Shown one piece after another: positions 15,840-64,000 of a stretch of DNA of 64,000 bases (position 1 is the stretch's first letter; the number at the start of each line of letters is the position of its first letter). The notes beneath the pieces were generated by a model. It was not told where the DNA came from. It saw only the letters and a list, made by a program, of their open reading frames with translations, and did not search any database. The stretch is from NCBI GenBank assembly GCA_017409575.1, contig JAFQSM010000074.1:1-64000 (forward strand), given 5' to 3'. The position numbers and the translations under genes are program-made. This DNA comes from Clostridia bacterium (lineage in GTDB: Bacteria > Bacillota > Clostridia > Monoglobales > Monoglobaceae).

Positions 15840-16116
15840 AAAAAACTCGTCTCAAAAATTTTGAGACGAGTTGTTAACCCGCGGTACCACTCAAATTGCG
15901 AAAAATATTTTTCGCCACTTTCCAGGCTCTAACAAGCCTTTTGCCTTTACGCAGCATTACGGAAGGAGTCTACTAAGCATTGCCTTTCGGTCCCTCGACT
16001 CAGAAGTGATGGGTCATTGGAAAGCTCCGCCATTGCCTCGCACCACCCGGCAACTCTCTCAAGGCCTCACAATCCGACCGTCTTCGTCACAGTCTTTTTT
16101 GTGATATTCAAATTTA
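15840..16116 (-). promoter_or_regulatory. T-box leader, probable isoleucine specifier
   Basis: Minus-strand leader of the XRE-cupin-CoA ligase operon. It has the Stem I AGAGAG bulge region, a GGTGCGAGGC distal loop, the T-box AGTGGTACCGCGGG (15878-15891) and a terminator hairpin (15844-15872) with a T tract. By spacing to the closing GAG, the specifier is ATC at 16008-16010, followed by A as usual. The bases before it are CC rather than the GAA seen in the other two leaders here, so the Ile assignment is less sure. Confidence 0.85.
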
Positions 16117-20059: not shown

Positions 20060-20330
20060 CCAACAAAAAAACGCCCCCGCCTCCTTGTTGATTCAAAGAG
20101 ACGAAAACGCTCGTTTCCGCGGTACCACTCTTCTTCATCCCAGAGGGATGCCCTTTAGATGCAAACACATCTCAACTCTGTTACGGGAGTTCCCGTCTGC
20201 CCCTACTACACTGTTCGCAGCAGCCGCTCCGCGGTGAGTTCTGCAAATCTCCCCCAATGCCTCGCACCACCCGGCATCTCTCTCAAGGCGAAAGTTTTTG
20301 CGTACTATTCCACATCACTGCGTTTATAAC
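20060..20330 (-). promoter_or_regulatory. T-box leader, leucine specifier (CTC)
   Basis: Minus-strand leader of the LeuA-like and TIM-CoA ligase operon. Stem I has GAGAGAGATGCC and GGTGCGAGGC; the specifier loop reads GAA-CTC-ACC with CTC at 20236-20238. The T-box AGTGGTACCGCGG (20118-20130) is followed by a terminator (about 20066-20110) whose stem uses several G-U pairs and ends in a T tract. Confidence 0.92.
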
Positions 20331-22299: not shown

Positions 22300-22593
22300 T
22301 AAAAAAAACACGCCTTCCGTATTCCTTGTCTAAGAATACAGAGGACGAGACAAATCCCGTGGTACCACCTCAGTTTACCGTTTTCTCACGATTGCGGCCT
22401 TAGAGAGTGTCAAACAACACCCTTGTTCTGTAACGGGAACACCCGTTGCATCCTACTGAAAAGCCTCCTGCTTTTGTTCAGCGCACTGCTCACAGGATGA
22501 ATTCATAATGGCCACCCCATTGTCTTGCAGCAACCGACAACTCTCTTTAAGGGTTTTTCCAAAACTACTTATTCCTGCTCAAACGCATTTAAT
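22300..22593 (-). promoter_or_regulatory. T-box leader, phenylalanine specifier (TTC)
   Basis: Minus-strand leader of the paaK and ACT gene pair. Stem I begins with the AAAGAGAG bulge; the specifier loop reads GAA-TTC-A. The T-box is GAGGTGGTACCACGGG (about 22356-22371) and a terminator with an eight-T run follows (about 22301-22345). Reading TCA instead would give Ser, but the GAA before and the A after fit TTC. Confidence 0.9.
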
Positions 22594-26296: not shown

Positions 26297-26395
26297 TTAC
26301 ATCAAAACGGAAGCAGCACCTTCCCACAGGAGTTTCACCTCAGCCCATTCTGATGGCCTGCCGTCCAATTCAATGACGAGTTCAAGACGGGAGTA
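26297..26395 (-). pseudogene. short coding remnant
   Basis: An open frame of 32 codons without a start codon, closed by stops on both sides, encodes LELVIELDGRPSEWAEVKLL and on to a final ASVLM, with normal coding character. It is probably the broken end of a gene from a related element. The rest of the gap 26116-26850 holds no gene I can support; the stretch is richer in G+C than its surroundings and contains the hairpin at 26760-26785. Confidence 0.35.
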
Positions 26396-26759
26396 TCATT
26401 ATTAGCAACAATGGTCTTCGCATAACGGTTTGCAAGTCCGCCTTATTGCATGAAGTTTATCGCTCGCTTTCTACGGAGTAGAGAAGGTCTTCGCGCCTTT
26501 TGCAAAACTGCTCACATTATTGCTTATGTGTTTTGATGTTGTTATTCAATTTTCGAGGTTCAACTTATATATTTCAGCTAAGATTTTCTACTTGGGCTAT
26601 TATTATAGCGTGTGAACCTAGGGGTCTGTCAAGGCCTTTTTGCCCGCGTCACGAATTTTTAACAAAAGTGCAGCGAACGCGCAATAATTAAAAATTTTTA
26701 TAGTTGATATTTTGCTTCTTGTAACCGCTTTATATATCGCATTTTTTATTAACAAAAGA

Positions 26760-52491: not shown

Positions 52492-53040
52492 CTATCCATT
52501 GATAGTAAAAGCATTGTATGTATCTGTCAGTATGTTCCAAAGTTCGCGGTCAACAATCCCGCTACTTTCTTTGCCATAAAGTCTACTGAAATCCTTTACC
52601 GCCTGAGAGGTTTTGTTGTCGTATACCCCGGTCAATTCCGGCATAGTTACATTTTTAAAGATTTTGGCTATGCGTCTCAGCATAATTTGCAAAAGATAAA
52701 TCTCCTCAAAGTCGTCGCCCTCCTTAAGATGCGGAATCTCGGGAGGATACCCTAAAATTCCCTTGGGGAACATATTCTTTCTTTTTAGTTCATCATAAAA
52801 ATCCACAATAGCTGTCCATGTTTCAAAATCCGCCTCACCGCTTTGCGAAAGTCCCGTCTTTTTTTGAAAAGCCGATACCGCTGCCCGTGTTTCGGGTCCA
52901 TAAATTCCGTCGGGGACTACAGTCGGTATCCCATCAGTATTTTGCGAAATGTATCTCAAAAACTGTTGTAATTCGTTTATATTGGCAGGTTTATCCCTGA
53001 AAGAATAGTATTCCCTGTCTGATATATTTCCGTTTGCCAT
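52492..53040 (-). CDS. peptidoglycan-binding domain protein
   Basis: A 182-residue protein with two PG_binding_1-type repeats: about 15-80 (VPDGIYGPETRAAVSAFQKKTG) and about 105-175 (ELTGVYDNKTSQAVKDFSRLYG). There is no signal peptide or catalytic domain. ATG 53040 follows GGAGG. It lies 6 bp downstream of a larger protein with the same repeats, so the two are in one operon. Likely a coat, cortex or cell-wall associated structural protein. Confidence 0.85.
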   Translation of the reverse strand: MANGNISDREYYSFRDKPANINELQQFLRYISQNTDGIPTVVPDGIYGPETRAAVSAFQKKTGLSQSGEADFETWTAIVDFYDELKRKNMFPKGILGYPPEIPHLKEGDDFEEIYLLQIMLRRIAKIFKNVTMPELTGVYDNKTSQAVKDFSRLYGKESSGIVDRELWNILTDTYNAFTING

Positions 53041-53052
53041 CAATACTCCTCC

Positions 53053-54447
53053 TTAATTTACTGTATATCCCGGATTTTGGCCCGAGGTCTTCTGGTCGCC
53101 ACTTTGCAGATTGAAATAGGTATCCTCAATCAGTTTCCACGCACCGGGTCCAACAATTCCTTTTTCGGGAAGTCCCACATCGCGAAGGAATGAGTTCACC
53201 GCATTTACAGTCTGTTCGCCATAGTATCCGCTTGGCTCCACATACTCGATATTTTCAAAAAAACCTGAAATAAAGTCAAGTCTTTCCTGCAAAACTCTGA
53301 CCGCTTCGCCCGAACTTCCCAGAACAAGAGGTGTGCCCGGATATGGCACCGGAACATTTGACAGAAACTCCGGCGGATTACTTTGGATTATTCCCAGATA
53401 AACCTCGCTCAGCTTATCCCACGTAGTTTCGTCAACAACGCCTGTCTGTGGGAGACCATAAGCACTCTGAAACTCCCTGACCGACGCAAGTGTTGCCTGA
53501 CCGAATGTACCGTCAATTGCCGGTGCCGACACCGCATTGTTATAGGCGGCAATAAACGCCAGATAATACTGAAGCACCCTGACCGGATCCCCGGAATTCC
53601 CAAGCCTTATGTCCGAAACAAACTGTTTGGGGATATCCTCAATTCGTATCCCTTCAGAATTCAGCTCGGCAAGGTTTGCTACTGCAACATATATATACTT
53701 TATTTTGTACCAGGTCGCCTTGCCTATTATCCCATCAGGGGTCAGGTTGAAAATCCGCTGAAATTCCCTGACTGCATTTTCGGTCTGCACGCCAAAAACT
53801 CCATCCGTCGCCGAAATTTTGGGGATTGACGGGTAATCCTTTGAAATTCTGTTGAGCTGAGTTTGTATGTTCCTGACCTCTTGTCCCGAGCTGCCAAGTC
53901 TCAAAAGCTCACCCGGATACGACTCGGAGATATTTTGAACAGGCGCATCCCTGACCAGTTCAATGTCATTTCCATAATAATTTGTCAATATCTCATATGG
54001 TGTATATCCTGCATTGGCAAGGTCCACACTTCCCCATTGCGAAAGTCCGTCGCAAGTCACCTCGCGGCCGTCACAAAACGCTGCAAAAAGCGGTTCAAGG
54101 TTGCCTTGCCTTCGGATGTAATCATTAAAAATCTCATCTACTATCTGACTTATATTTTCAAATATATCGCGGTTTCTTACAAATGACTGGTCAAATGCCG
54201 TTGAGTTGGTTATATCAAAATCATAGCCCCTTGACCTGTACCACTCGGTATAGACTCTGTTTAATGCATACGAAATCTGCGCATATATATTTGCCCTGAT
54301 TGCGTTTTCGGGCCAGGTGGGATAAATTTCGCTTGATGCGACATTTTTTATGTAATCTGCAAAATTGACAGTCACATTTTCGGCGTTTGAGTCAGGTGCT
54401 CCAAGATGAACTGTTATTGTTGCTGGTATGTAAGGTCTGCCTACCAA
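53053..54447 (-). CDS. SpoIID-like domain plus peptidoglycan-binding repeats
   Basis: A 464-residue protein. The N-terminal part (about 1-170) resembles the SpoIID/LytB domain: YIKNVASSEIYPTWPENAIRANIYAQISYAL, then CDGLSQWGSVDLANAGYTPYEILTNYYG. Three PG_binding_1 repeats follow (about 190-255, 280-350 and 375-450), each with the D/Y-G-x-F/Y-G-x-x-T pattern. TTG 54447, six bases after GAGGTG, is the preferred start; GTG 54456 overlaps that site. SpoIID-type enzymes are lytic transglycosylases in sporulation; there is no signal peptide, so it may act in the mother cell or be released otherwise. Confidence 0.8.
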   Translation of the reverse strand: MVGRPYIPATITVHLGAPDSNAENVTVNFADYIKNVASSEIYPTWPENAIRANIYAQISYALNRVYTEWYRSRGYDFDITNSTAFDQSFVRNRDIFENISQIVDEIFNDYIRRQGNLEPLFAAFCDGREVTCDGLSQWGSVDLANAGYTPYEILTNYYGNDIELVRDAPVQNISESYPGELLRLGSSGQEVRNIQTQLNRISKDYPSIPKISATDGVFGVQTENAVREFQRIFNLTPDGIIGKATWYKIKYIYVAVANLAELNSEGIRIEDIPKQFVSDIRLGNSGDPVRVLQYYLAFIAAYNNAVSAPAIDGTFGQATLASVREFQSAYGLPQTGVVDETTWDKLSEVYLGIIQSNPPEFLSNVPVPYPGTPLVLGSSGEAVRVLQERLDFISGFFENIEYVEPSGYYGEQTVNAVNSFLRDVGLPEKGIVGPGAWKLIEDTYFNLQSGDQKTSGQNPGYTVN

Positions 54448-54462
54448 AAAAATCACCTCATA

Positions 54463-54996: not shown

Positions 54997-55686
54997 ATGT
55001 TTACGGCCTTTATACGCACTATTATAATGTATTTTTTTGTAGTTTTGACACTCAGGCTGCAGGGAAAGCGCCAGATAGGAGAGCTTGAGGCATCAGAGTT
55101 GGTTGTGACTATTGTAATATCCGAGGTTGCCGCTCTTCCCATACAAGACACCTCCCAACCGCTTATCAACAGTCTTGTGTCCATTTTTTTGCTGGTTATT
55201 CTTGAAGTGCTGATTTCGTTTGGGGCTTATAAGAGTTTTGCCCTCAGAAAGATTTTTTTTGGCACACCAAGTGTTTTTTACGAAAAAGGAAAAATAAATG
55301 AATCCGAAATGGAAAAGCATCGTTTCAACCTTCACGATTTGATGGAATGTGTGCGAAACACCGGAGCAACAAACCTTTCGGAAGTGGATTTTGTAATTAT
55401 GGAGACAAACGGAAATGTAAGTGTGATACCCACCCCACAGAAAAGGTCTCTGACTCCCGAGGATGTCGGGATTTCTCCGTCGGCTTCGGCCTTAAGTTAT
55501 GTGATAGTAGACAATGGGTGCATTAATTCGCACAACCTGAAAACACTTGGCTTTGACGAAAACTGGCTGCGTAAACAGCTTTCCTTAAAAAAAGTGTCCG
55601 GTCTTGCTGATATCTTTTGTATGACGGCAACAAAAGACGGTGATGTCATAATTATACCAAACAACAAAAGGAGGAAAAACCGATGA
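54997..55686 (+). CDS. YetF/DUF421-family membrane protein
   Basis: A 229-residue protein with three N-terminal helices (about 3-80, including the family segment GKRQIGELEASELVVTIVISEVAALPIQD) and a cytoplasmic two-domain C-terminus (about 85-225). The family is common in spore formers and has no settled function. It overlaps the DUF4363 gene by 4 bp, a frequent pair. Confidence 0.9.
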   Translation: MFTAFIRTIIMYFFVVLTLRLQGKRQIGELEASELVVTIVISEVAALPIQDTSQPLINSLVSIFLLVILEVLISFGAYKSFALRKIFFGTPSVFYEKGKINESEMEKHRFNLHDLMECVRNTGATNLSEVDFVIMETNGNVSVIPTPQKRSLTPEDVGISPSASALSYVIVDNGCINSHNLKTLGFDENWLRKQLSLKKVSGLADIFCMTATKDGDVIIIPNNKRRKNR

Positions 55687-56063
55687 AAATACTCCGCGCA
55701 GCAATAATAATACTTCTTGTTATGTGTATATTCATTGGAGTCCACTCCTTTTTGATGAACAAAATGGGAAAATCCCTTGGGGCAAAAAATGACGAGGTCT
55801 TCAGACTTGCATCAGCGGAAAACTGGGAGACTGTGCGTTTTAAACTTGAAGGAATCCGGCAGGAATGGGAAAAATACAGCATTTGGGCATCCCTGACCAT
55901 AAGCACGGAAGATATTGAGCAACTTGAAATTTCGCTTGCACAGGCTGAGGCGTTTGCCGATTTGGAAGAAAAGACCAACTTCTTTGGCGAATTTATTATG
56001 TTCTCAAAATTAGTCAACCATATTCCACATCGCGAGGGATTTCATATCGAAGAAATTTTATAA
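55683..56063 (+). CDS. DUF4363-family protein
   Basis: A 126-residue protein with one N-terminal membrane helix (about 4-25) and a helical outer domain with WETVRFKLEGIRQEWEKYSIW and FIMFSKLVNHIPHREGFHIEEI, the DUF4363 signature. Function unknown. It is translationally coupled to the YetF-like gene (ATGA overlap, GGAGG site). Confidence 0.88.
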   Translation: MKILRAAIIILLVMCIFIGVHSFLMNKMGKSLGAKNDEVFRLASAENWETVRFKLEGIRQEWEKYSIWASLTISTEDIEQLEISLAQAEAFADLEEKTNFFGEFIMFSKLVNHIPHREGFHIEEIL

Positions 56064-56082: not shown

Positions 56083-56111
56083 TTGACTTTATCAATTTAT
56101 TGTGCTAAACT
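56083..56111 (+). promoter_or_regulatory. promoter of the aromatic amino acid operon
   Basis: TTGACT (56083-56088) and TAAACT (56106-56111), 17-base spacer, 31 bases before the leader peptide ATG. Confidence 0.8.
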
Positions 56112-56142
56112 ATTATGCAAATAACCGAAAGGGTACAGGAAT

Positions 56143-56262
56143 ATGAATTTAATTGATTCTTTAAATCAGACAATTAAATATTTCTTCTACTTTATCAGCC
56201 TTAGCTTTTACTTTAGCTATGGTTATTTCTTTATGCCGAAAAAATTGTGTATAATGAGCTGA
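56143..56262 (+). CDS. Phe/Tyr-rich leader peptide of the aro operon
   Basis: A 39-codon frame with GAAAGGG nine bases upstream. Residues 13-30 read YFFYFISLSFYFSYGYFF: 7 Phe and 5 Tyr in 18 residues, the mark of an attenuation leader peptide. The stop TGA (56260-56262) overlaps the 5' arm of an antiterminator. The peptide should have no function of its own; ribosome pausing on it reports charged tRNA-Phe and tRNA-Tyr levels. Confidence 0.9.
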   Translation: MNLIDSLNQTIKYFFYFISLSFYFSYGYFFMPKKLCIMS

Positions 56263-56311
56263 TTTGGTTGATTTTTTGCTGAATCTTGTAACTTTTTTGA
56301 GAGCTCGTTAT
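56251..56311 (+). promoter_or_regulatory. antiterminator of the aro operon attenuator
   Basis: ATAATGAGCT (56251-56260) pairs with AGCTCGTTAT (56302-56311) over ten consecutive positions, one being G-U. The 3' arm shares bases 56302-56309 with the terminator stem, so the two structures exclude each other. The 5' arm would be masked by a ribosome at the leader stop codon. Confidence 0.82.
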
Positions 56312-56330
56312 ACAAACGGGCTCTCTTTTT
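56299..56330 (+). terminator. attenuator terminator of the aro operon
   Basis: GAGAGCTCGTT (56299-56309) pairs with AACGGGCTCTC (56315-56325, one G-U), followed by TTTTTATTTT, ahead of the aroF ribosome binding site. Confidence 0.9.
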
Positions 56331-56357
56331 ATTTTATATTTAAAGGGAGAGATAAAA

Positions 56358-57374
56358 ATGGTAATTGTAACAAAAACAACTATTCCGCAAAGTCATCTTG
56401 ATTCTATGATTGAGGAATTTAAAACAAAGGGATTTGAACTTAACATAATCCGAGGCAAAGACAGCATTGTTATCGGTCTTATAGGTGACACACACGCACT
56501 TGACGCCGACAGACTTTTGCTTAATCCTGATGTCGAGCGCATTATGCGTGTTCAGGAACCTTTCAAAAAGGCAAGCCGCAAATTCCATCCTATGAACACT
56601 TCCATAAAAGTCGGCAATGCTTCAATCGGTGACGAAAAATCCTTTGTTGTTATGGCAGGTCCTTGCAGTGTTGAAAGCAAAGAACAGATTTTGACTGTAG
56701 CAAAAAGTGTAAAGGAAAGCGGTGCTGCAATTCTTCGCGGTGGTGCTTACAAGCCACGCACATCACCGTACTCCTTTCAGGGGCTCGAGCTTGAAGGTCT
56801 TGAACTTTTAAAAGAAGCCCGTCGCGAGACAGGTCTGCCCATTGTAACCGAAATTATGTCGCCTCACCTTGTAGAAATCTTCGAAAACAATGTTGATATA
56901 ATCCAGGTCGGAGCAAGAAACATGCAGAACTTTGACCTTCTTAAAGAGCTTGGAAAGACCACAAAACCGATTCTTTTAAAACGCGGACTTTCTTCCACTA
57001 TTGAGGAATGGCTTATGTCTGCCGAATATATTATGGCAGGCGGAAACCCAAATGTAATCCTTTGCGAAAGAGGCATCCGCACATTCGAGACCTATACCCG
57101 CAACACACTTGACCTGAGTGCAATCCCTGCGGTCAAAAAACTTTCGCATCTGCCGGTTGTTGTTGATCCGTCACATTCGGCAGGTATAAACTGGATGGTT
57201 GAATCGTTGTCACTTGCTGCTATGGCAGTTGGTGCAGACGGACTTATTGTTGAGGTCCACAATGACCCCAAATCAGCCTTGTGCGATGGTGCTCAGTCAC
57301 TTGACCTTGACCAGTATGCAAATCTTATGAAAAAACTTGGTGCAATGAGCACACATTTTGGAAAGCAAATGTAG
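56358..57374 (+). CDS. aroF: 3-deoxy-7-phosphoheptulonate (DAHP) synthase
   Basis: A 338-residue family I-beta DAHP synthase, the first step of the shikimate pathway (phosphoenolpyruvate plus erythrose-4-phosphate). An N-terminal ferredoxin-like domain (about 1-70) is followed by the TIM barrel with VMAGPCSVES, LRGGAYKPRTSPYSFQG, QVGARNMQNF, LKRG and VDPSHSAG. No chorismate mutase domain is fused. It has a strong AAAGGGAG site and is first in a nine-gene aromatic operon controlled by the leader-peptide attenuator. Confidence 0.97.
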   Translation: MVIVTKTTIPQSHLDSMIEEFKTKGFELNIIRGKDSIVIGLIGDTHALDADRLLLNPDVERIMRVQEPFKKASRKFHPMNTSIKVGNASIGDEKSFVVMAGPCSVESKEQILTVAKSVKESGAAILRGGAYKPRTSPYSFQGLELEGLELLKEARRETGLPIVTEIMSPHLVEIFENNVDIIQVGARNMQNFDLLKELGKTTKPILLKRGLSSTIEEWLMSAEYIMAGGNPNVILCERGIRTFETYTRNTLDLSAIPAVKKLSHLPVVVDPSHSAGINWMVESLSLAAMAVGADGLIVEVHNDPKSALCDGAQSLDLDQYANLMKKLGAMSTHFGKQM

Positions 57375-57391
57375 AAAGTGACGATTTGAAA

Positions 57392-58255
57392 ATGGATACT
57401 CCTGACTTTAAAATTACAATAATCGGTCTTGGCATAATCGGTGGTTCTATGGCTTATGCCCTTAAAGGCTTTCACTCTGCCAAAATCTGTGGATGTGATA
57501 TCGACCCCGAAACCCGACAAAAAGCACTTGAAAACGGTGCCGTTGACGAGGCTGTTGAAAATCCCCGCGATGCAATCAAAAAAGCCGACCTTGTCATTCT
57601 TTGTACCTATCCTGAGGTGACACTTAAAATAATCAAAGAAAATGCATCTGTATTTAAAAAAGGTGCGGTGATAACAGATGTTTGCGGCGTAAAAACAAAG
57701 CTTGCACAGCAAATAGAGGCTGTCCTCCCCGAGTTTTGTGAATATGTCGGCAGTCACCCTATGGCAGGGAAAGAAACTCACGGCTTTGACAGTGCCGTTC
57801 CCGAGCTTTTTGGTATGTGCGGCTTTATAATCACTCCGGGCAAAACCTCGACAGATTATGGTGTGGGACTTATCGAAGATATGGCAAAATATATCGGTGC
57901 AACACGCATAGCGAAAGCCACCCCCGAGGAACACGACAGCGTCATTGCCTACACAAGTGACCTTATGCATGTTTCTGCTGCAGCACTTTGCCTTGACTTT
58001 AATGAGAAAATGAATCGTGCATATACAGCAGGCGCGTTTCGCGACTGCACACGAATTGCAAATATCAATCCAAAGCTATGGAGCGAATTGTTTTTAGAAA
58101 ATCGGGATTTTTTGCTTAAAGAACTTGACCGATACATAAGTTCTTTGGTAAAATTTAAGAATGGAATTGAAAACTTTGACAAAGACGAACTCGAAAAGCT
58201 TTTGTCAAGAGTGCGAACAAATAAACTTGATATGCAGGAAAGAGAGCCAAAATAA
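57392..58255 (+). CDS. tyrA: prephenate dehydrogenase
   Basis: A 287-residue NAD(P)-dependent enzyme converting prephenate to 4-hydroxyphenylpyruvate for tyrosine. Rossmann motif GLGIIGGSMAYALKG (about 11-25), then GSHPMAGKETHGF with the catalytic His region, and a helical C-terminal dimer domain with SDLMHVSAAALC. There is no C-terminal ACT domain, so direct feedback by tyrosine may be absent or use another site. ATG 57392 is preferred to the TTG six bases earlier. Confidence 0.94.
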   Translation: MDTPDFKITIIGLGIIGGSMAYALKGFHSAKICGCDIDPETRQKALENGAVDEAVENPRDAIKKADLVILCTYPEVTLKIIKENASVFKKGAVITDVCGVKTKLAQQIEAVLPEFCEYVGSHPMAGKETHGFDSAVPELFGMCGFIITPGKTSTDYGVGLIEDMAKYIGATRIAKATPEEHDSVIAYTSDLMHVSAAALCLDFNEKMNRAYTAGAFRDCTRIANINPKLWSELFLENRDFLLKELDRYISSLVKFKNGIENFDKDELEKLLSRVRTNKLDMQEREPK

Positions 58256-58256
58256 T

Positions 58257-59312
58257 ATGAACATACTCAAAGTAAATATTCCTGGACGGGAATATGACAT
58301 AAAAATTCAAAAAGGAATTCTGGATAATGCAGGTGTTTTGATTGCCGAGGTCTCGCCTGTTGGTAAGGCAGCTGTTGTTACCGACGAAAATGTCGCGCCA
58401 CTTTACGCCGAAAAACTGCTGGACTCTCTTAAAAAATCCGGGTTTTCACCATTTCTGGTGACTGTCCCTGCAGGCGAAAGTTCAAAATCACTTAAGTATC
58501 TTGAATTCTTGTATGCAGAGCTTCTTTCAAACAAAATCACCCGCAGCGACATAGTAATCGCTCTTGGCGGCGGAGTTGTCGGGGACCTTACCGGATTTTG
58601 TGCATCAACGCTTCTTCGGGGGATACCGTTTGTTCAAATACCCACAACACTTCTTTCGCAGGTGGACAGCAGTGTTGGAGGCAAGGTTGCAATCAATCTG
58701 CCTGCCGGGAAAAATCTTGCAGGTGCATTCTATCAGCCCAGGCTTGTAATCATTGACCCCAACTGTCTTGACACACTTTCTGACAAAATTTTTTCAGATG
58801 GAATGGCCGAAGTCATCAAATACGGTGCTATTCTTGACGAAAACTTTTTTGCAAAACTGGAAAATTCGGCGTCGCGTGCAAAGGTTATGGAAATTATCGA
58901 GGATGTAATATATCATTCCTGCGACCTCAAACGGCAGGTTGTCGAGGACGACGAGCTTGACCTTGGCGGAAGAATGATTCTTAACTTTGGGCACACATTT
59001 GGGCACGCAATCGAAAAGAAATATAACTTCGAAACCTACACCCACGGCGAGGCAGTTGCTGCCGGAATGGTTATGGCAGCAGAATATGGCGAATCACTTG
59101 GTATAACAAAAGATAATTCCAAGGACCGTATACGCTCCCTTATTTCAGCTTTTGGTCTGCCCGAAGAAATCGACATTGATGAACAGACTCTTTCGGGCTC
59201 AATCGCTGTTGACAAAAAAGGGAAGGGCGACTTTGTAAGTCTTATTCTTCCTGAAAAAATCGGCAAGGTGATAATAAAAGATATAAAGAAGGACCATATA
59301 TGGACAAAATAA
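58257..59312 (+). CDS. aroB: 3-dehydroquinate synthase
   Basis: A 351-residue NAD- and metal-dependent enzyme turning DAHP into 3-dehydroquinate. Motifs: PAGESSKSL, GGGVVGDLTGFCASTLLRGIPFVQIPTTLL (in part), VDSSVGGKVAIN, and metal ligands in GHTFGHAIE and THGEAVAAGM. ATG 58257 follows the tyrA stop by 1 base; a longer frame overlapping tyrA is not supported. Confidence 0.97.
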   Translation: MNILKVNIPGREYDIKIQKGILDNAGVLIAEVSPVGKAAVVTDENVAPLYAEKLLDSLKKSGFSPFLVTVPAGESSKSLKYLEFLYAELLSNKITRSDIVIALGGGVVGDLTGFCASTLLRGIPFVQIPTTLLSQVDSSVGGKVAINLPAGKNLAGAFYQPRLVIIDPNCLDTLSDKIFSDGMAEVIKYGAILDENFFAKLENSASRAKVMEIIEDVIYHSCDLKRQVVEDDELDLGGRMILNFGHTFGHAIEKKYNFETYTHGEAVAAGMVMAAEYGESLGITKDNSKDRIRSLISAFGLPEEIDIDEQTLSGSIAVDKKGKGDFVSLILPEKIGKVIIKDIKKDHIWTK

Positions 59313-60571
59313 CAATCACGCCCTGTCCTCTTTCGGGCAGTGTTAAAATTCCACCGTCAAAAAGCTATGCACACCGTGCAATCATATCCGCTTTTTTGTC
59401 GGGCGGAGACTGTAAAATTGAAAATATCAAGCTGTCAGACGACATTTCGGCAACCCTGTCTTGTATGAAAGCCCTTGGTGGGGAATATATATATGACCCC
59501 CAAAGTTTGACACTTAATATAAGCCGAAAAACCAAACCCTTAACCAAAAAAGTCCGGCTTGACTGTTTGGAGAGTGGCTCTACCCTCAGATTTTTTATTC
59601 CCATTGCACTCTCTCTTGGCACAGAATTTGAATTTTCGGGAAAAGACAGGCTTTTGTCAAGGCCTCTTGACCCATACTTTAAAATTTTTGACCACCTTGG
59701 CATCGAATACCATCAAACAGAAAACTCTCTTTTGATAAGCGGAAGTCTTAAGCCGGGAAAATTTGTAATCGACGGCTCGGTAAGTTCGCAATTTGTGACA
59801 GGTCTTCTTTTTGCACTTCCTCTTCTTGACGGGACCAGTGAAATAGCAATCGACGGCAATCTTTCGTCAAAAGGCTATATTGATATAACTCTTGATGTTC
59901 TTAAAAAGTTTGGCATAAAAATCAAAAATGACAATTACAAAACCTTCATTATAGAAGGAAATCAAAAATATAAAGCTCAAAACTATGTTGTGGAGGGTGA
60001 CTTTTCTCAAAGTGCGTTCTTCCTTGTCGCAGGGGCACTTGGCTCTGATATCACAGTCTCGGGTCTTAACCCCGACAGTCTGCAGGGAGATAAGAAAATC
60101 CTTGATATCATCAAAGAAACCGGGGCAAAAATTGAACAAGTCTCAAAATCTGACTTTAGCGCCATATGCACTTCCCTTATGCACGGCATAACGATTGACG
60201 CGGATGAGGTACCTGACCTTGTTCCTGTTCTGGCAGTTTTGTTTGCTTTTTGCAAAGGCGAAAGCCGTATAACAAACGCATCTCGCCTAAGGCTGAAAGA
60301 AAGCGACCGTCTTTCAACAACCTGTGATGTGCTTAAAAAAATGGGAGCAGATATTGAAGAAGGCGAAGATTTTCTTGTCATAAAAGGCAAGCAAACTTTA
60401 AAAGGCGCCGAAGTTTCTGCCCACAACGACCATCGTATTGCAATGGCAGCTGCCATTGCGGCTTGCCGCTGCGAGGGCGATGTAATTATAGACGGAGCGG
60501 AAAAGGCAGTAAGCAAATCCTATCCCGACTTTTTTGAAGACTATAACAATCTTGGAGGTAATGCAAGATGA
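59300..60571 (+). CDS. aroA: 3-phosphoshikimate 1-carboxyvinyltransferase (EPSP synthase)
   Basis: A 423-residue enzyme joining phosphoenolpyruvate to shikimate-3-phosphate. Key segments: PPSKSYAHRAIISAFLSGG (about 17-35), LESGSTLRFFIPIA, VSSQFVTGLLFALP, DEVPDLVPVLAV and RLRLKESDRL, and NDHRIAMAAAIAA. The phosphoenolpyruvate-site motif reads GSTLRF where many enzymes have GNAGT-type residues, as in class II forms. It overlaps aroB by 13 bp and aroC by 4 bp. Confidence 0.96.
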   Translation: MDKITITPCPLSGSVKIPPSKSYAHRAIISAFLSGGDCKIENIKLSDDISATLSCMKALGGEYIYDPQSLTLNISRKTKPLTKKVRLDCLESGSTLRFFIPIALSLGTEFEFSGKDRLLSRPLDPYFKIFDHLGIEYHQTENSLLISGSLKPGKFVIDGSVSSQFVTGLLFALPLLDGTSEIAIDGNLSSKGYIDITLDVLKKFGIKIKNDNYKTFIIEGNQKYKAQNYVVEGDFSQSAFFLVAGALGSDITVSGLNPDSLQGDKKILDIIKETGAKIEQVSKSDFSAICTSLMHGITIDADEVPDLVPVLAVLFAFCKGESRITNASRLRLKESDRLSTTCDVLKKMGADIEEGEDFLVIKGKQTLKGAEVSAHNDHRIAMAAAIAACRCEGDVIIDGAEKAVSKSYPDFFEDYNNLGGNAR

Positions 60572-61635
60572 ATACCTGGGGAAATAAAATAAAAATCAGT
60601 ATTTTCGGAGAGTCTCACGGAGGCGGAATCGGAGTCGTTCTTGACGGAATTCCGTCAGGGCTGGAGCTTGACACCGAATTTATAAAAGCCGAAATGACTC
60701 GCCGTGCCCCCGGAAGAGACAATCTGTCTACACCCAGAAAAGAAGCAGACGAAGTCGAAATTCTGTCAGGTGTTTTTGATGGAAAAACCTCGGGGACTCC
60801 AATTTGTGCTGTAATCCGCAACACAAATACAAGGTCAAAAGACTACTCGCCAAACATTCTCCGTCCCGGCCATGCTGACTTCACCGGTTTTGCAAAATAC
60901 GGCAAAGCACATGATTTTCGCGGCGGCGGACATTTTTCGGGCAGGATTACTGCAGGATTGGTTTTTGCAGGCGCAGTTGCAAAGCTTTGCCTTAAAGAAT
61001 CCGGCATAACTGTCGGCTCGCATGTCAAAAAAATACATACCGTTTCGGAAGACTCTTTTTCTGACCTTTCCCTTACCCCCGAGCTTTTGAGTGAGATTTC
61101 GCAAAAAGGATTTCCGGTTATTGACGATTCGGTCGGCGAAAAAATGAAAGCGGAAATACTTGCTGCCTCAGCCGACAAAAACTCGGTCGGCGGAATTATC
61201 GAATGTGCGGTTTTGGGGGTTAAACCCGGAATCGGCTCGCCGTTTTTTGCATCGCTCGAAAGCCGGATTTCGTCACTTATCTTCTCGGTCCCTGCAGTAA
61301 AGGGCATCGAATTCGGATGTGGCTTTGATTTTGCTGATATGTATGGCTTTGACGCAAACGACCAATTTGAAACCGACGGAAAAGAAATTTATACCAAAAC
61401 AAATCACAACGGAGGAATAAATGGCGGAATATCAAACGGAATGCCGATTATGTTCACGACCGTAATCAAACCCACTCCGTCAATAGCAAAACCGCAAAGC
61501 ACCGTTGACCTTGAGAAAATGGAAAACACCACACTTGAAATCACCGGCCGGCATGACCCCTGCATTGTTCAGCGTGCAGCGGTGGTAATCGAAAGTGCTG
61601 CTGCTCTTGCGATTTTGGATGCACTATATGACTAA
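60568..61635 (+). CDS. aroC: chorismate synthase
   Basis: A 355-residue FMN-dependent enzyme making chorismate from EPSP. Signatures: FGESHGGGIGVVLDGIPSGL, RAPGRDNLSTPRKEADEVEIL (in part), RPGHADFTGFAKYG with the RGGGHFSGRITAG block, and RHDPCIVQRAAVV. Length is near the usual 350-360 residues. Overlaps aroA by ATGA. Confidence 0.97.
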   Translation: MNTWGNKIKISIFGESHGGGIGVVLDGIPSGLELDTEFIKAEMTRRAPGRDNLSTPRKEADEVEILSGVFDGKTSGTPICAVIRNTNTRSKDYSPNILRPGHADFTGFAKYGKAHDFRGGGHFSGRITAGLVFAGAVAKLCLKESGITVGSHVKKIHTVSEDSFSDLSLTPELLSEISQKGFPVIDDSVGEKMKAEILAASADKNSVGGIIECAVLGVKPGIGSPFFASLESRISSLIFSVPAVKGIEFGCGFDFADMYGFDANDQFETDGKEIYTKTNHNGGINGGISNGMPIMFTTVIKPTPSIAKPQSTVDLEKMENTTLEITGRHDPCIVQRAAVVIESAAALAILDALYD

Positions 61636-61653: not shown

Positions 61654-62790
61654 ATGTACGATATAGATTCTTTAAGACAGGAAATCGACAAAATTGATGC
61701 CGAACTTCTTCCTCTGTTTCTCAAAAGAATGAATTGCAGTCTTGGTATTGCAGAATACAAGCGGCAAAACAATCTGCCTGTTTTGGATAAGCAACGGGAA
61801 GAAAAAATATTAAATGACAAAATGTCAAAGGTAAGTGAGGAGCTCCGGATTCCTGTCCGTGATTTTTTTGCAGGAATAATGAAAATAAGCCGCAACGAAC
61901 AGACAAAGGCACTGGCTGACACTCAATACGCACTTTCGCTCCTTGACAATTTTGAAAATGCTACAGATGTCAAAAAACCGCTTGTTGCATACCAGGGCAT
62001 TCCCGGTTCAAACAGCGAAACAGCACTTATGCAGTTTTTTGGCGAGTCCTCTGAAAAAACCAATGTTATGACCTTTGCTGAGGTTCTGGACGCGGTAAAT
62101 GATAATAAAGCCGATTTTGGAGTTATACCGCTTGAAAACTCCTCTACCGGCTCAATTTCGGCAACTCTTGACCTGCTTGAAAAACGCAGTCTTTACATAG
62201 TCGGCGAAACAGAGGTAAACATCGACCACTGTCTTGTCGGGTTGCCTGCCGCAGAACTTCGGGATATCAAAAAAGTATACTCGCATGAGCAAGGATATAT
62301 GCAATGTAAGGCATTTTTTGCAAAACACCCCAAAATGCAATTCGAGCCATATCACAACACCGCATTGGCAGCAAAAATGATTGCCGGAAATGGCGACCCC
62401 TCCGTCGCTGCAATTTCGGACCGTCGTGCAGCTGAGCTCTATGGTCTTAAAATCCTTGCCGAAGGGATAAGCTCGATTGATGTAAATAAAACACGCTTTA
62501 TTGTAATTGCAAAAAAAGGTCAGCTTGCCCCGGAATTTGACAAAGTCAGCATACTTTTTACTCTTCCTGACCGAAGCGGTATTCTTAACGAAGTTTTGTC
62601 GGTTTTTGCGCAAAGCGGAGTAAATCTTTTGAAGATTGAGTCAAGGCCAAGCCGTGACGGGTCGTTTCATTATATGTTCTTTGTTGATTTTGAGGGCAAC
62701 TTGCAGGATGAAAAGATAAAAAATGTTATTTCGCAGCTTTTGAATATGACTGCATCACTCAAAATCCTGGGCAACTATAAATCCTGCTGA
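61654..62790 (+). CDS. pheA: bifunctional chorismate mutase/prephenate dehydratase
   Basis: A 378-residue P-protein: an AroQ-type chorismate mutase (about 1-90, LRQEIDKIDAELLPLFLKRM), prephenate dehydratase (about 108-285, YQGIPGSNSETA, IPLENSSTGSI and the NKTRFIVIA end of the domain) and a C-terminal ACT domain (about 298-372) with the phenylalanine-binding ESRPSRDGSFHYMFF motif. It commits chorismate to phenylalanine and should be feedback inhibited by Phe. Good GGAG site after a gap of 18 bases. Confidence 0.97.
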   Translation: MYDIDSLRQEIDKIDAELLPLFLKRMNCSLGIAEYKRQNNLPVLDKQREEKILNDKMSKVSEELRIPVRDFFAGIMKISRNEQTKALADTQYALSLLDNFENATDVKKPLVAYQGIPGSNSETALMQFFGESSEKTNVMTFAEVLDAVNDNKADFGVIPLENSSTGSISATLDLLEKRSLYIVGETEVNIDHCLVGLPAAELRDIKKVYSHEQGYMQCKAFFAKHPKMQFEPYHNTALAAKMIAGNGDPSVAAISDRRAAELYGLKILAEGISSIDVNKTRFIVIAKKGQLAPEFDKVSILFTLPDRSGILNEVLSVFAQSGVNLLKIESRPSRDGSFHYMFFVDFEGNLQDEKIKNVISQLLNMTASLKILGNYKSC

Positions 62791-62804: not shown

Positions 62805-63305
62805 ATGAAAAATATTGTCCTTATCGGCATGCCCGGCTCGGGCAAAACCACAATCGGCAAGCTTCTTGCAAAAAAACTTGGTCTTTTGTTTTTTGACTCG
62901 GACCAATATATTGAAGAAGCTCAAAACTTGACCATCCCCCAAATCTTTGAACAGTTTGACGAAGACCACTTCCGAAAGCTTGAAACCGACGCGCTTAAGG
63001 ACCTTTCTCAAAAAACAAACTCTGTGATATCAACGGGCGGCGGAATTGTGGAAAGGGAAGAAAATACCGATATTTTAAAAAAATCATCTGTTGTGATTTT
63101 TATAAACCGACCCCTAGAAAATCTTTTGAGTGATATTGACACAAAAAACAGACCGCTTCTGAAAAGCGGCAAAGAAAAACTTGTCGGTCTGTTTGAGCGA
63201 AGATTTGAGCTTTACAAAAAAGCCTGCCACGCCGAAGTTCTGAACAACGAATCTTTGGAAAATGTACTAAACAAAATAATAAGTGAGGTTTTGAAAAATG
63301 ACTAA
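62805..63305 (+). CDS. aroK: shikimate kinase
   Basis: A 166-residue P-loop kinase: Walker A GMPGSGKTTIGKLLAKKLG (about 6-24), substrate residues DSDQYIE, FRKLETDAL and STGGGIV, and a lid near KNRPLLK. It phosphorylates shikimate at O3. It overlaps aroQ by 8 bp. Confidence 0.96.
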   Translation: MKNIVLIGMPGSGKTTIGKLLAKKLGLLFFDSDQYIEEAQNLTIPQIFEQFDEDHFRKLETDALKDLSQKTNSVISTGGGIVEREENTDILKKSSVVIFINRPLENLLSDIDTKNRPLLKSGKEKLVGLFERRFELYKKACHAEVLNNESLENVLNKIISEVLKND

Positions 63306-63741
63306 AATTTTGGTAATAAACGGACCTAACCTGAATATGCTTGGTATTCGTGAGCCCGAAGTATATGGGAAAAAAACCTATGCTGATCTGGAAAACTATA
63401 TCGAGGAATACTGTCGCGAAAAAGGTGCCGAGGCAACCGTTCTGCAAAGCAATGGTGAGGGCGAGCTGATTGATTTTATCCATCATTCGCAAGGCAATTT
63501 TGACGGCATAGTTATAAACCCGGGCGCATACACCCACTACAGTTATGCCATCCGCGATGCACTTTCGTCAATCGAAGTTCCTGCCGTTGAGGTGCACATC
63601 AGCAACATTCACAAGCGCGAAGAATTTCGCCATACCTCTGTAACCTCTCCTTCATGCATCGGTCAAATTACCGGTCTTGGCTTTAAAGGATATCTTTTGG
63701 CGATTGATTATCTTTTGGAGGAGGCTTTAAAGCGTGACTAA
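63298..63741 (+). CDS. aroQ: type II 3-dehydroquinate dehydratase
   Basis: A 147-residue small dodecameric-type enzyme: INGPNLNMLGIREPEVYG with the catalytic Tyr, QSNGEGELIDFIH, INPGAYTHYSYAIRDAL and VHISNIHKREEFRHTS with the catalytic His. It dehydrates 3-dehydroquinate to 3-dehydroshikimate. Overlaps aroE by 8 bp. Confidence 0.97.
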   Translation: MTKILVINGPNLNMLGIREPEVYGKKTYADLENYIEEYCREKGAEATVLQSNGEGELIDFIHHSQGNFDGIVINPGAYTHYSYAIRDALSSIEVPAVEVHISNIHKREEFRHTSVTSPSCIGQITGLGFKGYLLAIDYLLEEALKRD

Positions 63742-64000
63742 ACTGCGTTTGGATGTTGTCGGCGACCCCATAAGTCACAGCAAGTCACCATATATTCACG
63801 AAACAGTTTTGAAAGAGCTTGGATTTGAGTACGAGTACCGGAAAGTACAGGTTAAAAAAGGTGAGCTTTCGAAATACCTGTTTGAAGCAAAAGCTCTTGG
63901 ACTGTGTGGATTCAACCTTACAATGCCTCACAAAACGGATATAATCCCTTTTCTTGATTCTATTGACGACGAAGCACTCCGTTTGGGCTCGGTCAATACA
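63734..64000 (+). CDS. aroE: shikimate dehydrogenase (partial, cut by window end)
   Basis: The first 89 codons of AroE, starting at GTG 63734 within the end of aroQ. The start TKLRLDVVGDPISHSKSPYIH carries the shikimate-binding SHSKSP motif; further on come GFNLTMPHK with the catalytic Lys and SIDDEALRLGSVNT. It reduces 3-dehydroshikimate to shikimate with NADPH. It completes the pathway from DAHP to Phe and Tyr precursors. Confidence 0.95.
   Translation, partial: MTKLRLDVVGDPISHSKSPYIHETVLKELGFEYEYRKVQVKKGELSKYLFEAKALGLCGFNLTMPHKTDIIPFLDSIDDEALRLGSVNT

Follow-up and report, generated by a model that had tools for sequence, protein, structure and literature searches.

A predicted Phe/Tyr leader-peptide attenuator precedes the aromatic biosynthesis operon of a Clostridia bacterium and its relatives

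The window analyzed here is a stretch of 64,000 nucleotides from a Clostridia bacterium (Monoglobaceae; contig JAFQSM010000074.1), which ends in a series of genes for aromatic amino acid biosynthesis that overlap or sit at most a few tens of bases apart (Table 1). An earlier note, made from the sequence alone, had described a nine-gene aromatic operon at this place. Pfam and NCBIfam matches support the first eight genes, and the ninth, aroE, was named by motif alone. The region between the promoter and aroF contains a short open reading frame (ORF), two mutually exclusive RNA hairpins and a third hairpin within the ORF itself.

Table 1. Positions of the leader elements, the aromatic operon genes and the T-boxes in the window
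Feature	Position	Strand	Basis
Promoter, sigma-70-type, TTGACT - 17 nt - TAAACT, TG ahead of the -10	56083-56111	+	Sequence
Shine-Dalgarno of the leader ORF, GAAAGGG	56127-56133	+	Sequence
Leader ORF, 39 codons, MNLIDSLNQTIKYFFYFISLSFYFSYGYFFMPKKLCIMS	56143-56262	+	Sequence; peptide conserved across the family
Regulatory Phe/Tyr codons of the leader ORF	56179-56232	+	
Hairpin P1 within the aromatic codons (56197-56206 with 56215-56224)	56197-56224	+	Consensus fold
Region 2, antiterminator 5' arm (codons 36-39 and first stop-codon base)	56248-56260	+	
Region 3, antiterminator 3' arm (within terminator 5' arm and loop)	56302-56314	+	
Intrinsic terminator, 11-bp stem (56299-56325) and U run	56299-56333	+	
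aroF, DAHP synthase (type I, B. subtilis-like)	56358-57374	+	Pfam PF00793 and PF18152; TIGR01361
tyrA, prephenate dehydrogenase	57386-58255	+	Pfam
aroB, 3-dehydroquinate synthase (start codon inferred)	58257-59312	+	Pfam
aroA, EPSP synthase	59300-60571	+	Pfam
aroC, chorismate synthase	60568-61635	+	Pfam
pheA, chorismate mutase-prephenate dehydratase	61654-62790	+	Pfam
aroK, shikimate kinase	62805-63305	+	Pfam
aroQ, type II dehydroquinase	63298-63741	+	Pfam
aroE, shikimate dehydrogenase, cut by the window end	63734-64000	+	Translation, motif only
T-box	15859-16099	-	
T-box	20094-20327	-	
T-box	22338-22592	-	

The short ORF between the promoter and aroF is enriched in putative regulatory codons and is predicted from its sequence to be translated. 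It carries 7 Phe and 5 Tyr codons within 18 codons, a density with a binomial p of about 5e-10 against the 7.6% F+Y of nearby genes, where the p value refers to this single fixed 18-codon stretch. The promoter, the GAAAGGG site and the 39-codon peptide with this Phe/Tyr cluster had all been proposed in the earlier note, and direct reading of the sequence bore them out. The -35 CTTGACTTTA and the extended -10 are kept in nine species of the window's genus, and relatives have a purine-rich GAAAGG or AAGG at the site equivalent to the Shine-Dalgarno. Gaps in the coding core of the alignment (A1) are multiples of three, and the whole leader folds 4.7 standard deviations below dinucleotide shuffles.

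An intrinsic terminator lies 5' of aroF, the first structural gene, which starts about 25 nt past the U run. The 11-bp terminator stem includes 6 GC pairs and is followed by TTTTTATTTT. Region 2, at the end of the leader ORF, can pair with region 3 in an unbroken 13-bp helix with one G-U pair, and this helix outscores all 200 dinucleotide shuffles of the upstream sequence (p = 0.005). The terminator and the 2:3 antiterminator share bases from 56302, so they are mutually exclusive. A terminator that overlaps an antiterminator, and an antiterminator 5' arm that reaches the leader stop codon, had both been claimed before and agree with the pairing found here. The antiterminator pairing itself also stands, with a correction to its length: the 10 bp given previously are the inner part of the 13-bp helix.

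To follow the leader in relatives, AroF was searched in 60 related genomes, and the upstream DNA of 30 loci was read. An aromatic-rich leader ORF was present at all 26 same-family aroF loci with readable upstream DNA and absent at three loci of another family of the order (L028-L030). The first scan found a terminator and a 9-14 bp antiterminator at 25 of the 26 family loci; at the 26th (L026) the terminator was missed under the first-scan rule, and both elements were present in the second scan. For five family leaders, three of which are near-identical, the best single helix reached just p = 0.07-0.11 against shuffles. A nucleotide model of the leader (R1) gave exactly one match in 31 of 37 family genomes, and three genera had no leader match in this search.

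In a MAFFT alignment of all family leaders, region 2 does not line up in one set of columns across genera; covariation of the 2:3 helix was therefore counted only within the window's genus, and shuffle tests were used elsewhere. In the genus alignment (A2, nine species), each of the 12 aligned 2:3 pairs can form in every species (108 of 108 cells), and two positions have changed on both sides in a compensated manner; as a control, sliding one arm by 1-3 columns left 33-47% paired. Between genera the arm sequence differs wholly (UGUAUAAUGAGCU, GUAAAGCCCG, CUUUGAGCCUG or GAACCUG) while its complementarity to the terminator arm is kept, and five leaders from five genera gave a combined 2:3 helix p of 1.9e-7. 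The terminator is 98.5% paired across the family (25 sequences), with double changes in seven of eight counted pairs. The earlier note had staked its reading on finding the aromatic codons and the competing pairing conserved upstream of aroF in related genomes, with covariation of the stems. Both proved to be conserved, and the mutually exclusive antiterminator co-varies.

The effect of ribosome position was analyzed by placing a ribosome at each codon in turn and folding the RNA 3' of it, with about 12 nt assumed to be protected beyond the A-site codon. When region 3 has just emerged, the probability of the 2:3 helix is 1.0 with the A-site at any of the Phe/Tyr codons. The helix is mostly lost at codon 34; with the ribosome anywhere between codon 35 and the stop codon, both included, its probability is 0, leaving the terminator as the one hairpin able to form. 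The folding itself therefore puts the switch point after the last Phe codon and ahead of the stop. That Phe codon ends 15 nt 5' of region 2, and this gap gives the geometry that a codon sensor requires. All 29 family leaders tested in the same way still had over 10 base pairs with region 3 at each core aromatic codon. In silico, the position of the ribosome thus appears to decide which hairpin forms, and the folding supports the previous proposal that a ribosome finishing the peptide blocks the antiterminator while a stalled one leaves region 2 free. In equilibrium folding the full-length RNA nearly always favours the terminator, so antitermination must be kinetic; presumably the polymerase escapes before the RNA rearranges.

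Taken together, the leader is very probably a ribosome-mediated transcription attenuator of the trp/phe type that controls the aroF-aroE operon. Because the window's leader has no aromatic codons other than those for Phe and Tyr, we hold with about the same high confidence that Phe and Tyr are the amino acids sensed. In the proposed mechanism, the polymerase would transcribe the leader while the ribosome translates the leader peptide. With ample Phe-tRNA and Tyr-tRNA, the ribosome would reach the stop codon and cover region 2, and with region 2 covered the terminator (3:4) would form ahead of aroF. If Phe or Tyr ran short, the ribosome would stall at the regulatory codons and leave region 2 free; the free region 2 would then pair with newly transcribed region 3, giving readthrough into the operon. 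All nine genes would be expected to respond to Phe/Tyr. We infer that ribosomes stall in vivo on uncharged tRNAs and that antitermination then wins kinetically.

The element had been called a complete classical attenuator, a description that fits its ORF, terminator and antiterminator; no clear 1:2 hairpin of the classical type was seen. A 1:2 protector hairpin was considered as a candidate, and its pairing was weak (5-6 bp) and non-uniform, with part of it missing in two species of the genus (L148 and L149). A local hairpin, P1, was seen instead. P1 is paired in 96% of cells among 25 family sequences, and its covariation is weak, with four of nine pairs invariant.

The codons in this stretch are also unusual. 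In the aromatic core of leaders from other groups, 79% of Ser codons are AGC and 82% of Gly codons are GGC, compared with 27% and 36% in the adjacent aroF genes, and the preference holds even in AT-rich Clostridium. Such a bias points to selection on the RNA besides the peptide in the aromatic-codon stretch, and the embedded hairpin accounts for part of it. As a conjecture, the likeliest role of P1 is to pause the polymerase until the ribosome has caught up. The finding of a hairpin within the regulatory codons, biasing Ser and Gly toward AGC and GGC, is new here and had been overlooked in the earlier note.

The codon bias bears on another explanation, in which the nascent peptide would arrest the ribosome in response to an aromatic amino acid or another ligand, in the manner of TnaC or the Erm leaders, instead of sensing charged tRNA through its codons. 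Conservation at great distance of Gly (62 of 71 leaders), of Ser and often of Cys-x-Lys after GYF would fit such a peptide. However, the aromatic positions exchange F, Y and W freely, and the conserved Ser and Gly residues are the ones whose codons are biased relative to aroF and lie within an RNA hairpin, so RNA structure explains much of their conservation. Peptide arrest would also need to raise, not lower, the expression of a biosynthetic operon, and we consider it improbable. Less probable still is a leader ORF that acts as in attenuation but is read out mainly by Rho-dependent termination or translational coupling; the strong 11-bp stem with its U run argues against this, and the stem with its overlapping antiterminator is what co-varies. 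That the hairpin is merely the terminator of an upstream gene, with the short ORF incidental, is hardly credible: an ORF at 55683-56063 does end upstream on the same strand, but a conserved promoter lies between it and the leader, and the terminator, the peptide and the 2:3 helix move together in the family and stay with the operon even when it lacks aroF.

Leaders of the kind expected for a Phe/Tyr-codon attenuator also occur outside the window's Monoglobus-like family. A scan of named genomes with AroF gave 80 loci, 79 of them with enough upstream DNA, and at least 8 F/Y/W in 18 codons were found upstream of aroF at 53 of the 79 loci (shuffles average about 4). These loci come from the window's family and also from Clostridium, Sporomusa, Phascolarctobacterium and other Acidaminococcaceae, Anaerotruncus and Epulopiscium; the leaders of Flavonifractor have somewhat fewer aromatics. 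Records with a leader of the same design include those of Clostridium tyrobutyricum, C. magnum, Sporomusa acidovorans and Phascolarctobacterium faecium. The peptides align on the core F-Y-F-S-x-G-F-Y-F-S-x-G-Y-F-x-C-x-K, and F, Y and W swap at aligned positions, as expected for codon sensing. A T-box was considered as an alternative regulator of aroF homologues without a clear leader, and none was found in 20 such or similar loci.

In Clostridium, the cores of region 2 (UAAUGAG) and region 3 (CUCAUUA) are near that of the window's genus. Unlike in the window, the ORF of several Clostridium leaders stops 20-50 nt beyond region 2 (in L043, L078, L088 and L099 it runs on for about 30-55 nt), so a ribosome parked at the stop would not cover region 2. 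In leaders of the Phascolarctobacterium type the simple-helix test was negative, which makes the mechanism less certain there.

A 24-column peptide profile was then used in a blind search against 391 genomes of the class and 398 of the phylum, and it gave one match per matching genome (42 class genomes and 10 phylum genomes). All 38 distinct profile-match loci that were read sit directly 5' of an aromatic-pathway gene, which was aroF in 30, pheA in 3, tyrA in 2, aroB in 2 and, in 1, a second type of DAHP synthase named by its sequence. Three species of the window's genus with incomplete genomes (L148, L149 and L150) gave no AroF match by protein search and carry the same leader directly before tyrA-aroB-aroA-aroC-pheA. 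A related leader that has a terminator/antiterminator pair of its own stands before pheA in one family member and in two genomes from another family of the order. The leader therefore travels with the pathway and not with one gene.

A wider reading joins these observations. One homologous leader, peptide and RNA switch together, may have been inherited since a Clostridia/Negativicutes ancestor as a default regulator of the shikimate/Phe/Tyr genes; the embedded hairpin, constraining the Ser and Gly codons, would stand in for the 1:2 hairpin, and in Clostridium, with the stop well past the antiterminator arm, the terminating state would be set by ribosome movement or release. We put this joint reading forward tentatively and think it rather unlikely to hold in all its parts. 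If it were true, the terminating state in Clostridium would not come from a ribosome parked on the stop.

The same genome contains seven T-box matches, one of them before pheS. This match (L115; G000:C68:33684-33919, minus strand) is T-box-like and scores 88 bits, under the 93-bit cutoff. With a T-box-like match at pheS and the leader at aroF, Phe-tRNA synthetase and Phe biosynthesis appear to be under different sensors in this genome. The three T-boxes in the window precede genes for a helix-turn-helix/AMP-binding protein (named by eye), a 2-isopropylmalate synthase-like protein and a phenylacetate-CoA ligase (paaK), and these genes may be amino-acid catabolic. The minus strand of the window also carries a match to the Rfam pemK RNA (RF02913) at 26324-26402 (56.8 bits, cutoff 34.8). 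At 52492-54456, again on the minus strand, the translations of two ORFs (183 and 467 aa) resemble repeated peptidoglycan-binding-like modules, and these ORFs possibly encode a spore-cortex or cell-wall protein.

At the window leader, the Rfam scan found no known element: among the amino-acid operon leaders (Trp, His, Leu, Thr, Phe) the best was Trp_leader with 18.7 bits against a cutoff of 41, and the T-box model (RF00230) had no match there, though it matched the three T-boxes elsewhere in the window. The leader peptides had no meaningful match in Pfam and NCBIfam. Because the design recurs across gut and soil anaerobes and has no Rfam, Pfam or NCBIfam match, the window leader may represent a widespread regulatory RNA family that as yet has no name. 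It provides a simple rule for annotating an overlooked small ORF, and with it one could ask whether these bacteria couple transcription to translation tightly enough for classical attenuation. T-boxes are the usual account of amino-acid control in Clostridia, and here a translated leader would serve the aromatic biosynthesis operon.

In enterobacteria, pheA is preceded by the leader pheL and pheST by pheM, and the trp attenuator belongs to the same class. The window's leader resembles these attenuators in having codons for the product amino acids in the leader ORF, an antiterminator that overlaps an intrinsic terminator, and a switch between the regulatory codons and the stop. It differs in using both Phe and Tyr codons, in standing before a whole shikimate/Phe/Tyr operon headed by aroF, and in lacking a clear 1:2 hairpin and having a hairpin inside the regulatory codons. 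T-box riboswitches (RF00230) likewise sense uncharged tRNA and act on a terminator/antiterminator pair, whereas sensing by the window's leader is proposed to occur via translation.

Leader-peptide attenuators for other amino acids have been reported in Bacillota: His attenuators at hisS/hisZ in bacilli (PMC2965389) and at the his operon in the B. cereus group, Eubacteriales and Erysipelotrichales (PMC9413887), and Leu-rich ilv attenuators in S. aureus and Listeria (PMC5794164, PMC5864092). They share the leader peptide, terminator and antiterminator with the window, and differ in their amino acids and operons and in a narrower reported distribution. Since these His and Leu systems were already reported, the contrast that the earlier note drew between enterobacterial leader peptides and the T-boxes or TRAP of Bacillota is weaker than implied.

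For a Phe/Tyr leader in Clostridia, the literature search returned only candidates from two genome surveys, and an earlier prediction of this leader in some Firmicutes may exist. One is uORFC-13-1, a candidate before Acholeplasma aroF with 24 representatives, at least one Phe codon and a terminator (PMC8632094); the other paper gives two candidate Phe/Tyr uORFs at shikimate genes, with C. novyi among the five genomes surveyed (PMC6429828). By their descriptions in the available parts of these papers, the candidates resemble the window in placing a uORF that contains Phe (and Tyr) codons ahead of aroF or other shikimate genes, and differ in that an antiterminator switch is not described there. 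The kind of regulator is thus already known; what appears to be new is the architecture as worked out here, together with its covariation, the hairpin embedded in the regulatory codons and the wide distribution.
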